A model generated the notes under the pieces. That model was not told the DNA's origin. It saw only the letters and a list, made by a program, of their open reading frames with translations, and did no database searches. From an uncultured Fluviicola sp. (GTDB lineage Bacteria; Bacteroidota; Bacteroidia; Flavobacteriales_D; Crocinitomicaceae), in contig NZ_CABHOL010000052.1 in assembly GCF_902168135.1 (NCBI RefSeq), forward strand, positions 1-64,000: 64,000 nucleotides of DNA. The letters are read 5' to 3'. A program made the position numbers and the translations under genes. This document shows positions 19,928 through 60,192 of the stretch, one piece after another; the stretch's first letter is position 1, and each line of letters starts with the position of its first letter.

Positions 19928-20818
19928 TTATTTCAACGGAAGCGGTTTCGCTACAGCTTCGTCAAATTTGGTTTGTTCTTTCACAGGAACTTTGCGAAAG
20001 GTTAAGTATAACCCGATTAAAATAAAAGGTATACTTAACAACTGACCTGTATTCAACACCCAAACATCATCGCGCTGTGTTTGTCCTACTTTGATGAACT
20101 CGATCACAAAGCGCGCTGTCCAGATCAGGATCATGAACATTCCGAATAACCTTCCCGGAATCGCTTTTGCATTTGTTTTCCAGTACATTCTCATCAACAC
20201 GATGAATGAGAATAAATACGTGATGGACTCATACAATTGTGCCGGATGGCGCGGAATCGGATTTCCATTAGCATCAAAGTATTCCGGGGCATTGTAAAAC
20301 TTGAAACCCCATGGCAGATCTGTCGGCGTACCGATAATTTCATGATTTACCAGGTTCCCCAAGCGGATAAAACATCCTGCAATAGCAATCGGAGCTACAA
20401 TCCGGTCCAAAATCCACAACATCGGCCGGTGGATGACACTTCTAGAGTACACATAAAGCATCACCAGGATCATAATAGCTGCACCATGGCTCGCTAATCC
20501 ACCTTCCCAAACTCTCAAAATCGACATCGGATGGGAAAAATACCCTTCTTCGATCAATCTTCCGCTCGAATCAAACGTATCCCAATAAGGCCCGTAGAAC
20601 AAAACGTGGCCCAAACGAGCACCTATGACTGTTGCCGGAACAACATACAACAATAATTTATCGAGGTACTTATCGGAGATTCCCTCAGATTTAAACATTC
20701 TTTTGATCATGTAATATCCGAAGATCATTCCTCCTACGAACAACAATCCGTATAAGTTCGGGGTAGACCATCCGTCGATAAGTTGCGAGTCTACTTTCCA
20801 GTCAATTACTAATTCCAC
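19928..20818 (-). CDS. lgt: Prolipoprotein diacylglyceryl transferase
   Basis: The 296-residue membrane protein has about seven hydrophobic helices and the Lgt signature region IRLGNLVNHEIIGTPTDLPW (with the conserved Asn, Glu, Gly and Pro-Trp). It moves diacylglycerol from phosphatidylglycerol to the lipobox cysteine of prolipoproteins, the first step in making the lipoproteins seen at 48-527 and 31013-31228. The start is GTG at 20818 (MELVIDWKVD); no suitable ATG precedes it. Confidence 0.93.
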   Translation of the reverse strand: MELVIDWKVDSQLIDGWSTPNLYGLLFVGGMIFGYYMIKRMFKSEGISDKYLDKLLLYVVPATVIGARLGHVLFYGPYWDTFDSSGRLIEEGYFSHPMSILRVWEGGLASHGAAIMILVMLYVYSRSVIHRPMLWILDRIVAPIAIAGCFIRLGNLVNHEIIGTPTDLPWGFKFYNAPEYFDANGNPIPRHPAQLYESITYLFSFIVLMRMYWKTNAKAIPGRLFGMFMILIWTARFVIEFIKVGQTQRDDVWVLNTGQLLSIPFILIGLYLTFRKVPVKEQTKFDEAVAKPLPLK

Positions 20819-21895: not shown

Positions 21896-22055
21896 ACTAT
21901 GTTTGTTTTTTGTAAAAAGTCGGTACAGCGCCTATGCCATCCTTGCTACGCCGGAGCGGCTTTGCGAAGGCTATGAGCTTCAGCGCCGGCACAAAGATAT
22001 TAAGATATTAGGACTTCAGGATATTAAGACTTCAAACTTTTTTACAAAAAAATGA

Positions 22056-22133
22056 AAACTCTGATTTACCGAAATAAACCAGAGTTTCCAACTTTAAACC
22101 TAACCCCCTAAATCTATCCGGTTAATTAACCGG
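22056..22133 (+). repeat. Single hairpin plus ACCTAAC box, related to the 58.7 kb array
   Basis: The stem AAACTCTG/CAGAGTTT (22056-22063 with 22080-22087) extends inward by TTTA/TAAA after one mismatch. It is followed after 10 bp by ACCTAAC (22098-22104) and then by CCGGTTAATTAACCGG. The order hairpin, T-rich end, ACCTAAC box is that of the repeat units at 58.65-59.35 kb. Confidence 0.5.
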
Positions 22134-29470: not shown

Positions 29471-29533
29471 ATCTTTGAACTCTTTTGAACTCTTTTGAAC
29501 TCTTTTGAACTCTTTTGAACTCTTTTGAACTCT
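29471..29533 (+). repeat. Microsatellite of 10-bp units (TCTTTTGAAC) upstream of the POT-like transporter
   Basis: Five perfect copies (29481-29530), one preceding variant (ATCTTTGAAC) and a trailing TCT end 13 bp before the ATG at 29547. Each unit holds TTTG, the -33 element of Bacteroidota promoters, at helical-turn spacing. Confidence 0.95.
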
Positions 29534-30776: not shown

Positions 30777-30840
30777 GGAAGGTTTAAATAATTGAAAATG
30801 GACAATTGAAAAGTGAAAAGTTGTTTAGATGAAATTATTT

Positions 30841-30896
30841 GAACATTTGAACATTTGAACATTTGAACATTTGAACATTTGAACATTTGAACATTT
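30841..30896 (+). repeat. Microsatellite of seven 8-bp units (GAACATTT)
   Basis: Seven perfect copies follow the transporter stop by 64 bp. The unit is related to the TTTGAAC type of the upstream 10-bp array. Confidence 0.95.
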
Positions 30897-30916
30897 GATT
30901 TACTAAAAAAATAAAA

Positions 30917-57974: not shown

Positions 57975-58625
57975 ATGAGTGATGTACTAGATAACATGAA
58001 TTTTTTTTCTCAAAAGAATGTCGATCTGGGAAACCTGAATTATCCCTTAAAGTTCACTTTCAAAATCGGGACATTGGCCAACGATTTCGTCATAGAAGAC
58101 GCAAACTCTGCAACATTGGCTTATGTACGCCAGAAAATGTTCAAGTTTATTGAGGAAATCCAGGTATTCACCGACACGAATAAAACAGCACTGGAATTCA
58201 CCATCAAAGCAAATAAGTGGATCGACTTCTCGGCAACCTATGTTTTCACAGATAAGAACGGGATTGAAAAAGGACGTGTAGCCCGCAAAGGCTGGGCATC
58301 CATCTGGAAAGCCCGGTACGATGTCTACGATCAGCACGAACACCTGGCTTTTCACATCATGGAAGAAAACGCATGGACAAAAGTTTTTGACGGCTTGTTC
58401 AGTGAAATTCCGGTTTTAGGAATGTTTACAGGCTATGTATTCAATCCGAAATACATTGTTGGAAGACCCGACGGATCAAAAGTGATGCGCTTGAAGAAAA
58501 ACCCTTCCATGTTCGGTCGAAAATTCACGCTTGAAAAAATCGGCCCGACACACAACACCAGCGAAGATGAATGCATTGTTCTTTCTTTAATGATGATGAT
58601 CTTACTGGAAAGAAGGCGTGGCTAA
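57975..58625 (+). CDS. LURP-one-related (tubby C-terminal-like) protein
   Basis: The 216-residue protein has the LOR pattern LKFTFKIGTLANDFVIEDAN, LAYVRQKMFKFIEEIQVF and WTKVFDGLFSEIPVLGMFTG, a beta-barrel with one central helix as in tubby C-termini. Some members bind membrane lipids; no function is known here. It follows the DUF1801 gene by 3 bp and ends at a hairpin terminator. Confidence 0.8.
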   Translation: MSDVLDNMNFFSQKNVDLGNLNYPLKFTFKIGTLANDFVIEDANSATLAYVRQKMFKFIEEIQVFTDTNKTALEFTIKANKWIDFSATYVFTDKNGIEKGRVARKGWASIWKARYDVYDQHEHLAFHIMEENAWTKVFDGLFSEIPVLGMFTGYVFNPKYIVGRPDGSKVMRLKKNPSMFGRKFTLEKIGPTHNTSEDECIVLSLMMMILLERRRG

Positions 58626-58644
58626 AATCACAACGATATAAATC

Positions 58645-58678
58645 AAAAGGAGTGCACCATGGCGCACTCCTTTTTTTT
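58645..58678 (+). terminator. Terminator after the LURP-one gene, first hairpin of the repeat region
   Basis: A perfect 11-bp stem AAAAGGAGTGC/GCACTCCTTTT (58645-58655 with 58664-58674) is followed by T to 58678. It is directly followed by the first ACCTAAC box. Confidence 0.9.
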
Positions 58679-59240
58679 ACTCAATTTACCTAACCCAACC
58701 TAAATCCAAGCGGATCCGATCGCTTTTTCAAAAGAACTATCCCTTCATGGATGCTCCTTTTTTACATTAACCAATTTACTAACCTAACCAAGTAATTCGT
58801 ATTTTATCGTTCCGGGTTCTGCAGGTTTGTTTTTTAGAAGAATCCAGGAGCCATCTATTTAAATCGACAACCCCTATTCTCCAAATTAACTATTCAACTT
58901 ACCTAACCTAACTCAAAACCTTATTCAGCAGCCAATGTTATTTTTAAGCTAAGAGGAATCAAAAGGTTTGATCCCTCTTTTCACTATTAAACCTAACCAC
59001 CTACTATTACTTCATTTTCATTTTATGTTCATCCAACCAGTCTGTTTTCCAGAAGAATGAAGGAGCATCTGCCGAGGCAAACACCCCTTATTCTTTACAC
59101 TATTCAACTTAACCTAACCGAAAGCGACTATCTTTTTTGTAATACCGCCCCTACAGTTGATCGTTGAGAAGCTGCCTGTAGTAAGGGACAACCTCTCTTT
59201 CACTATTCAACCTTACCTAACCACTCTTACTATATCTTCA

Positions 59241-59351
59241 ATGAATCATTCTAAACATTTTGTTTCGTGGAAGAACTATTTTAAAATGCTCTTCGGATAC
59301 GAATACAGTACAAAGCTAGAAGGCTTCACAGCTCTCGGGGATTTTTTTTGA
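59241..59351 (+). CDS. Possible 36-residue small protein in the last unit of the array
   Basis: The frame ATG 59241 to TGA 59351 encodes MNHSKHFVSWKNYFKMLFGY and further residues ending GDFF. It lies in the B3 unit. The related B units at 58782 and 58991 do not keep this frame, which argues against coding; the position before the regulator gene allows a leader peptide. Confidence 0.2.
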   Translation: MNHSKHFVSWKNYFKMLFGYEYSTKLEGFTALGDFF

Positions 59352-59380
59352 TAAGTGAGCAGAAATAAAAATAAGTGAGT
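59351..59380 (+). promoter_or_regulatory. Direct repeat ATAAGTGAGn at 20-bp spacing before the LytTR regulator
   Basis: ATAAGTGAGC (59351-59360) and ATAAGTGAGT (59371-59380) are exactly 20 bp apart, two helical turns, 107 bp upstream of the LytTR start. The second copy also forms an inverted repeat AAATAAGT/ACTTATTT. LytTR proteins usually bind two direct repeats at about 20 bp centre spacing, so this is a good autoregulatory site candidate. Confidence 0.55.
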
Positions 59381-59487
59381 AAACTTATTTGAAAAGTGCG
59401 TTTACAATTGTATTTTAGAGACGCTATTCATTTACATACACCTGTAAAGAAAGAGACAAAACACAACCGTTTAACATACAAATTAAA

Positions 59488-60192
59488 ATGATTAATTGTG
59501 TAATCGTTGAAGATGAACCGATCTGTCAGCAAGTTCTCTTACAAAAACTCAAGTTTCATTACCCGCAATGCGAGGTACTGAAGGTTTTTGACAATAAAGA
59601 CGATGCAATTAGTTACCTGAAATCAGCAGATAACATAGACCTGGTGTTTCTGGACGGACAAATAAACGGCGGAACTGGCCTGGATGTTCTGGCAGCCTGT
59701 GAAGGCAGATCCTTTGAAGCTGTATTCGTAACAGCTTATGATAAATTTGCCATTGATGCGTTGAATGCTGCTGCATCTTATTACTTGTTAAAACCAATTC
59801 GCACGGAAGACTTCAAACGGGGAATGTCACTTATTTTATCCCGGATCAATCAGTCAAACACGTCCAATACGATACTTGTTCCTTACAAAGGAAGTTATAC
59901 TGCTCTCAAGTACGATGATATCATTTACTTCGAATCGGATGGAGCTTATACCAACATCATTACAAAAGACGATAAGATAGTATCCTCTAAAAACTTAGGT
60001 CATTACGAAAAACTGCTTCCGAAAGAACAATTTAAACGTTCACATCACGGTTACATTGTCAACCTGAATCACATGCAGCTTTTAACGAAGGGAAGGACCG
60101 GAACGATCAAAATGGTTAATGGTACGGAAATCCCGGTAGCACAACGACGCATGCAGGAATTCATGCAGCTTTTTAATGAAGGCCAGCAGTAA
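59488..60192 (+). CDS. LytTR-family response regulator
   Basis: The 234-residue protein has a receiver domain (1-120) with Glu8-Asp9, the phosphoacceptor Asp56 (LVFLDGQI), Thr82 and Lys102, and a LytTR DNA-binding domain (about 130-234; IIYFESDGAYTNIITKDD, RSHHGYIVNLNHMQLLTKGR, EIPVAQRRMQEF). No histidine kinase gene is near, so the partner is unknown. It lies just after the repeat array and the candidate operator. Family call is secure. Confidence 0.93.
   Translation: MINCVIVEDEPICQQVLLQKLKFHYPQCEVLKVFDNKDDAISYLKSADNIDLVFLDGQINGGTGLDVLAACEGRSFEAVFVTAYDKFAIDALNAAASYYLLKPIRTEDFKRGMSLILSRINQSNTSNTILVPYKGSYTALKYDDIIYFESDGAYTNIITKDDKIVSSKNLGHYEKLLPKEQFKRSHHGYIVNLNHMQLLTKGRTGTIKMVNGTEIPVAQRRMQEFMQLFNEGQQ

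Follow-up and report, generated by a model that had tools for sequence, protein, structure and literature searches.

The array analysed here lies near the end of a window of 64,000 nucleotides from an uncultured Fluviicola sp. (genome G000), in a gap at 58626-59487 that separates a gene for a 216-aa protein without a Pfam match from the gene of a response regulator with a LytTR DNA-binding domain. A single ORF of at least 60 aa is found within the gap (59157-59351, plus strand, TTG start, 64 aa), and its counterpart in the close relative G002 has 36 aa. On the plus strand the motif ACCTAACC occurs at 58688, 58782, 58901, 58991, 59112 and 59215, and a seventh copy of the window, outside the array and on the same strand, is located at 22098; the seven copies compare with 1.17 expected, and none of 100 dinucleotide shuffles reached seven. 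All six box copies that a preliminary description had placed in the gap, as well as its single copy near 22.06 kb, were located, above the shuffled expectation in number, and the alternating spacing of about 92 and 120 that it had claimed was observed for the first four steps (94, 119, 90 and 121) and lost at the last (103). Read on the minus strand, each unit consists of a box, GGTTAGGTTAAGTTGAATAGTG, and then a hairpin; the core GGTTAGGT is present in 6/6 units, and a hairpin adjoins every box. Among the genomes of the genus, the array was found in three only, namely G000, G002 and G007.

The features of the locus are listed below, with the units in the presumed order of transcription. R1 is a covariance model built from 28 free-standing copies of a related small RNA in 13 genomes of the genus, with the array units left out.

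59488..60192, plus strand: response regulator with LytTR DNA-binding domain (Pfam Response_reg 1.2e-12, LytTR 1.2e-19)
59351..59379, minus strand: direct repeat CTCACTTAT-N11-CTCACTTAT, candidate LytTR response-regulator site
59311..59318, minus strand: -7 element TAGCTTTG (TAnnTTTG type), promoter-like site of the whole array
59223..59304, minus strand: presumed 5′ leader of the array RNA, between the -7 element and the first box, from a predicted start site
59166..59222, minus strand: unit 6 (first transcribed), box 59198-59222, hairpin 59166-59197 (-15.0 kcal/mol); R1 match 59182-59235, 25.3 bits, E 5.5e-4, mainly box
59054..59119, minus strand: unit 5, box 59095-59119, hairpin 59054-59094 (-19.9 kcal/mol); R1 match 59051-59129, 25.2 bits, E 5.8e-4
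58951..58998, minus strand: unit 4, box 58978-58998, hairpin 58951-58979 (-15.6 kcal/mol); R1 match 58944-59009, 25.2 bits, E 5.8e-4
58836..58913, minus strand: unit 3, box 58884-58913, hairpin 58836-58883 (seen in the fold); R1 match 58883-58918, box only, 11.9 bits, E 0.8, alone not significant
58730..58789, minus strand: unit 2, box 58762-58789, hairpin 58730-58760 (-11.7 kcal/mol); R1 match 58730-58802, 15.8 bits, E 0.096, weak
58645..58707, minus strand: unit 1 (last), box 58675-58707, hairpin 58645-58674 (inverted repeat 93%), likely doubling as the plus-strand terminator of the 216-aa gene; R1 match 58638-58710, 28.9 bits, E 8e-5
22048..22118, minus strand: single family member elsewhere in the window; R1 27.2 bits, E 2e-4 in 129 kb and 0.0068 genome-wide

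Repeats of other kinds were also seen. Two perfect tandem repeats lie in the window, TTTGAACTCT repeated six times at 29474-29533 and ATTTGAAC repeated 7.8 times at 30837-30898, and at three places in G000 (L006, L011 and L013, near position 1501, on C3, C21 and C21) a CTCTTACGCAAGAGTTAGTTAGGTTAAGTTGTAGTAG-like stretch stands directly before a terminator-like hairpin, as a further box-terminator combination of this genome. Integron attC sites carry RYYYAAC, which ACCTAAC fits, at one end and its inverted counterpart GTTRRRY at the opposite end. Cassettes of this type were rejected, because all seven ACCTAACC copies are on one strand and none is inverted, and because no inverted CCTAACC occurs in the G002 and G007 stretches.

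Strand and promoter of the array

Folding of 14 hairpins (six from the window, four from G002 and four from G007, of which G002 hairpins 3 and 4 have zero differences from the window over the measured stretches) gave a sum of -231 kcal/mol on the minus strand vs -153 on the plus strand, and 13 of the 14 preferred the minus strand. The exception is unit 2 of G002, with -12.4 kcal/mol on the plus vs -8.6 on the minus strand. Thirteen of the 14 minus-strand folds include G-U pairs, and these turn into A-C mismatches on the opposite strand. When the array was folded as a whole, with 60 shuffles for each strand, z was -4.6 on the minus and -0.9 on the plus strand. This strand-specific folding indicates that a unit reads box, A-rich gap and hairpin on the minus strand; the formerly described order of hairpin, T run and box holds for the plus strand, whereas on the structured minus strand it becomes box, A run and hairpin. 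The folds thus speak against the proposed row of plus-strand transcripts each with its own terminator, and separate small transcripts were not supported either, since a single promoter-like site is available for the whole array and its inner hairpins have, by inspection, no clear U run on the minus strand. Taken as a whole, the array very probably represents a non-coding RNA array on the minus strand.

TAnnTTTG is the Bacteroidota -7 promoter consensus. On the minus strand of 58626-59487 it is matched by TAGCTTTG alone, on the plus strand of 58561-59487 no TAnnTTTG was found, and none of the six units (0/6) has a promoter-like TAnnTTTG of its own. The direct repeat is positioned 32 nt upstream of the -7 element in G000, G002 and G007. 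Within 3 mismatches it has a single match in G000, and across 14 genomes of the genus it matched once in G000, once in G002, three times in G007 and nowhere else, each time at the array locus. The array is linked to the regulator gene and to the repeat and has one promoter-like site, and the repeat is probably the site to which the LytTR response regulator binds. In G007, the first repeat copy precedes a SprB-like/SprF/OmpA-type operon that is oriented divergently to the regulator gene, and the other two precede an adhesin-gene remnant and the four array units, respectively. On the G007 stretch itself (L043:1543-15232), the genes for a 3503-aa repetitive adhesin, PorP/SprF and an OmpA-type protein point away from the LytTR gene, and behind them lies a second adhesin copy that appears to be truncated.

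Conservation of boxes and stems

The array is kept in G002, which is 94% identical to the window over the locus. Differences affect 2/162 sites in the boxes, 10/211 in the hairpins, 16/197 in the spacers and 8/78 in the leader (59223-59300), and the regulator gene differs at 11/83 sites of its 5′ UTR. Hairpin 2 differs at 5/28 sites and so contributes five of all 10 hairpin changes, and two hairpin changes, at 59193 and 59082, convert a G-U into an A-U pair. The neutral yardstick is uncertain, because fourfold divergence from G002 ranges between 6% and 18% in the genes of the locus: the two flanking genes have 14/80 and 16/90 (30/170), the latter being the LytTR regulator gene (8/468 at positions 1 and 2), the next gene downstream has 11/65, and two genes further upstream have 5/55 and 14/223, with 60/513 for the five genes. 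Even the lowest fourfold rate, 6%, is still above the 1.2% of the boxes, and the boxes are under purifying selection. Decayed coding sequence, which the preliminary description had named as a refutation, was not borne out by the comparison of 2/162 with fourfold rates of 30/170 and 60/513, and as the present state of the region it was ruled out mainly by this box conservation.

ORFs of 25-64 aa occur in the array region, and several are in the same frame in G000 and G002, namely a 29-aa TTG and a 29/30-aa GTG ORF on the minus strand, and a 30-aa TTG, a 36/27-aa ATG and a 64/36-aa ORF on the plus strand. Such short ORFs may encode small peptides; as the identity of the two genomes is high, the frame sharing is unsurprising and the ORF comparison is not decisive. 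The stems of the array units covary at 14/14 pairs, with 97.5% of 121 cells paired, in an alignment of 14 pairs by 14 rows that was fitted to the structure and has letters on both sides in those 121 cells, many hairpin cells being gapped.

A family of free-standing small RNA genes

A search with a 22-nt box pattern (up to 3 mismatches, reversed pattern as control) gave matches in 14/14 genomes of the genus, with 1 to 8 in each vs 0-2 for the control, and two window units matched this degenerate pattern with 0 mismatches. Among 30 fetched matches, 28 are single genes outside the array, and L057 belongs to the G002 array. The alignment A2 comprises 28 of the 30 loci L053-L082, leaving out L057 and the sole locus of G010, L059; an earlier alignment, A1, in which array units stood together with free-standing ones, was poor and was set aside. 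A free-standing gene has its own promoter, the stretch GATTTAGGTGGTTAGGTTAGGTTGATTAGTG, and a covarying hairpin tipped with ACGCCYGT or a close sequence. GATTTAGGTGGTTAGGTTAGGTTGATTAGTG is nearly invariant in 27/28 genes (L076 has a TAGTAGG variant), and the TAnnTTTG element is exact in 19/28 and within one mismatch in 26/28, against backgrounds of 0.5% and 9%. In the stem, 10/14 pairs change on both sides and 95.0% of 317 cells are paired, and 0/500 shuffles reached any measure. The genes are multicopy, and each has a single-stranded 5′ stretch followed by a Rho-independent terminator, its T-rich tail recognized by inspection. At five free-standing loci, Rfam reported no family at the gathering threshold.

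With E<=0.1, R1 matched 46/60 genomes of the taxonomic family (Crocinitomicaceae) and 4/39 genomes of the same order outside it; its matches in 14/14 genomes of the genus are largely by construction, as the training copies came from 13 of these 14. In an even sample of the class, R1 matched 17/198 genomes with E<=0.01, three of the same family and 14 others. Seven of these 14 were inspected: five, all of one genus, have a shorter version with GUUAGGUUAGGUU, a hairpin with a GCCCG tip and a U-rich tail, and two do not resemble the family. A stretch of 21 nt from the 5′ domain was matched exactly in at least 80 stretches of named genomes; the isolates among the matches listed include Fluviicola, Brumimicrobium and Lishizhenia, and several metagenome bins among them carry unlikely titles. 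In Lishizhenia tianjinensis (L112:3183-3987) four complete family genes stand in a row, three with exact TATCTTTG and one with TATTTTAG. With gene names assigned by inspection, a lepB-like/WbqC-like neighbourhood is common to G000 and Lishizhenia, and a gap beside response-regulator genes is common to G000, Lishizhenia and G040.

Two members were encountered on contigs classed as viral. A complete free-standing member (L230:5932-6004, 77.6 bits) lies on IMGVR_UViG_3300031548_000029, where inspection showed genes for DNA methyltransferases and for Mu-like head and portal-type proteins, and another (L229:9319-9394, 68.6 bits) lies on a putative viral contig that is probably bacterial or a prophage edge, as it holds, by inspection, genes for DNA polymerase III alpha and a biotin carboxylase-like protein.

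On the window units, R1 scored 28.9, 25.3, 25.2, 25.2, 15.8 and 11.9 bits, with rough E values from 8e-5 to 0.8; a stray window match at 20472-20526 reached 13.0 bits, above unit 3, and the matches of units 6 and 3 are based mainly on the box. The control, made up of stretches from six relatives without CCTAACC at the corresponding loci, gave a maximum of 10.8 bits in 85 kb. The array units resemble the free-standing family, at least for four units, and have its conserved 5′ box GGTTAGGTTARGTTGAWTAGTG. Since the ACGCCYGT hairpin tip is absent from the array units and no unit has a promoter-like site, the array appears to be a divergent, clustered branch of the family and not a plain member. 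Rfam detected no family at gathering in the window; the best sub-threshold match was Plastid-psbA-2 on a hairpin, with 29.5 bits vs a threshold of 55.8. The earlier suggestion of a repeated RNA system under selection on structure is thus upheld by covarying stems and conserved boxes, and the covariation in relatives that was named as its test was found in both free-standing and array stems; the system is indeed repeated, but it is not confined to the array and a single copy, being multicopy across the bacterial family.

Discussion

Among known systems, FopS of Bacteroides thetaiotaomicron is similar to the present family in several aspects. As far as the part of the FopS report considered here describes, both are multicopy families of Bacteroidota, with sRNAs about 65-70 nt long and canonical Bacteroidota promoters, both include one 3′ UTR-derived member, FopS has a phage copy as the present family has a copy on a phage-like contig, and an RRM-1 protein is encoded in the genome in both cases (PMC11697453). 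The single-stranded 5′ stretch followed by a Rho-independent terminator, which that part of the report gives for FopS, is possessed by the free-standing genes and not by the inner array units, and the 5′ sequence found here differs, by inspection, from the R1′ seed consensus described there (PMC11697453). The free-standing genes have the FopS architecture with another sequence, while a six-unit row with one promoter-like site and an adjoining LytTR regulator gene sets the window array apart from FopS as described in the same part. Rfam scans of four free-standing copies detected no FopS, which Rfam 15 may not hold, and the GibS model gave 19.6 bits (E 4.6) vs a gathering threshold of 115. In the open-licence PMC literature, no paper on this family was found by title, nor was a case in which copies of a family's box stand in a row with one promoter-like site, next to a LytTR regulator.

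In CsrB/RsmZ and CrcZ, one RNA carries many copies of a protein-binding motif and is induced by a two-component system. As a putative multi-motif RNA under a two-component regulator the array resembles them, and it differs in that CsrA and Hfq/Crc are linked to those RNAs and not, so far, to the array. The LhrC copies are arranged in tandem, each as a separate gene; the array units are without promoter-like sites of their own, and LhrC belongs to another phylum; its Rfam model gave a match here with 25 bits vs a gathering threshold of 110, far below it. LhrC of Listeria monocytogenes is nevertheless like the array in being, according to the part of its report considered here, a multicopy sRNA tied to a two-component system, LisRK (PMC4132741).

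We propose, as the reading that we hold to be somewhat better than even, that the array encodes a regulatory RNA with multiple sites, which is under LytTR control and represents a clustered variant of a FopS-like family. The LytTR response regulator (59488-60192) would bind the repeat at 59351-59379 and activate the promoter at 59311-59318, and the product would be a single RNA, about 660 nt long and with its end near 58645, which, with its six exposed boxes, is the simplest product in view of the inner hairpins without a clear U run. Such an RNA would present six single-stranded GGUUAGGU-type boxes with hairpins between them, the boxes being putative copies of the conserved 5′ domain of the Crocinitomicaceae multicopy sRNA family. 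Upon induction it would flood the cell with boxes and could either compete with the free-standing sRNAs or add to them. In view of the likeness between its boxes and the 5′ domain of the free-standing genes' RNAs, the array RNA should meet their partner; by tying up this shared partner, perhaps an RNA-binding protein of the RRM type, it could act as a multi-site decoy. The partner may also differ, as the array loops have no ACGCCYGT tip. Every one of the 14 genomes of the genus has two RRM_1 matches, and it is this presence on which the link to RRM proteins is based. Transcription of the array, binding by the regulator, the partner and the decoy action are all what we infer from the DNA sequence.

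The array RNA may act as a decoy or by base-pairing, and both fit its anatomy. Base-pairing would mean that a long RNA is cut into box-hairpin units, that is, into polycistronic sRNAs whose boxes pair with mRNAs as FopS does with susC-type mRNAs, and we regard it as rather unlikely, although the long conserved 5′ domain in alignment A2 and the FopS-like architecture of a single-stranded conserved 5′ stretch plus hairpin, as given in the part of the report considered (PMC11697453), are in its favour. Against it, complementary 7- and 8-mers showed no enrichment at start codons in 422 genes of the window and 80 loci (L149-L228): for the 31-nt domain, 31 complementary 7-mers were counted at -40..+20 vs 82 +/- 27 for 60 shuffled domains, and 46 vs 85 +/- 24 in gene bodies. 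This test is weak evidence, because the loci were picked for holding the sRNA, starts were taken as the first ATG and genes near locus ends were dropped; the sample is small and biased with crude start calls, and a few strong targets would escape it. The complementary 7-mers were in fact rarer than for shuffled domains at both starts and gene bodies, which may reflect avoidance or plain composition. We favour the decoy over base-pairing, tentatively and with less than even confidence, on the basis of the missing complementarity enrichment, the RRM_1 genes and the precedent of FopS binding by an RRM-1 protein: the Bacteroides RRM-1 protein RbpB binds FopS RNAs and prefers single-stranded regions, according to the part of the report considered (PMC11697453).

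Two further readings would do without a minus-strand regulatory RNA or without any present function. Read-through from the 216-aa gene on the plus strand could yield an antisense sponge in which six CCTAACC sites pair with the free-standing sRNAs and remove them; each of the six plus-strand boxes has its complement within the conserved 5′ domain and G002 hairpin 2 folds better on the plus strand, but the absence of TAnnTTTG from that strand of 58561-59487, a hairpin (58645-58674) that with its T run resembles an intrinsic terminator and precedes the array, a plus-strand fold that hardly beats shuffled sequence (z -0.9), and a promoter and LytTR-type repeat that both face the minus strand make it highly improbable. 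The units could also be 3′-end fragments of duplicated SprB/SprF/OmpA-type operons left after deletion, with no present function. This is suggested by G007, in which the same flanks enclose a SprB-like/SprF/OmpA operon, accompanied by an adhesin remnant and four units (both adhesin features recognized by inspection), and in which the OmpA-type 3′ UTR gave an R1 match of 15.0 bits (E 0.15, not significant), and by G005, which seems, by inspection, to retain an OmpA-type 3′ end at the locus; four of eight flanks were inspected, L025, L027, L030 and L031, on the other side of the gene, being left out. Boxes that differ at 2/162 sites vs fourfold rates of 6-18%, covarying array stems, and the retained promoter and repeat argue against mere remnants, which we judge improbable as a description of the present state. 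History and function are compatible, so this reading may describe the origin of the array, and it is plausible that the window lineage lost the operon and kept the regulator, the promoter and the array.

In conclusion, the multi-site regulatory RNA could be carried one step further, to a statement that we consider doubtful in its entirety: the only recognizable genome site of a LytTR regulator (within 3 mismatches) would drive a six-site decoy RNA instead of a protein operon, and this RNA would soak up the partner, perhaps an RRM protein, of genus-wide single-box sRNAs. If true, it would be a CsrB-like switch built from an sRNA family's own box, and to our knowledge no such decoy RNA is known in Bacteroidota. 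Post-transcriptional control in Bacteroidota, a phylum reported to be devoid of classical RNA chaperone homologs (PMC11697453), is just opening up with FopS and RbpB in gut Bacteroides, and the Crocinitomicaceae family offers a second system for asking what RRM proteins do in this phylum, one that is testable in genera with named isolates, namely Fluviicola, Brumimicrobium and Lishizhenia.
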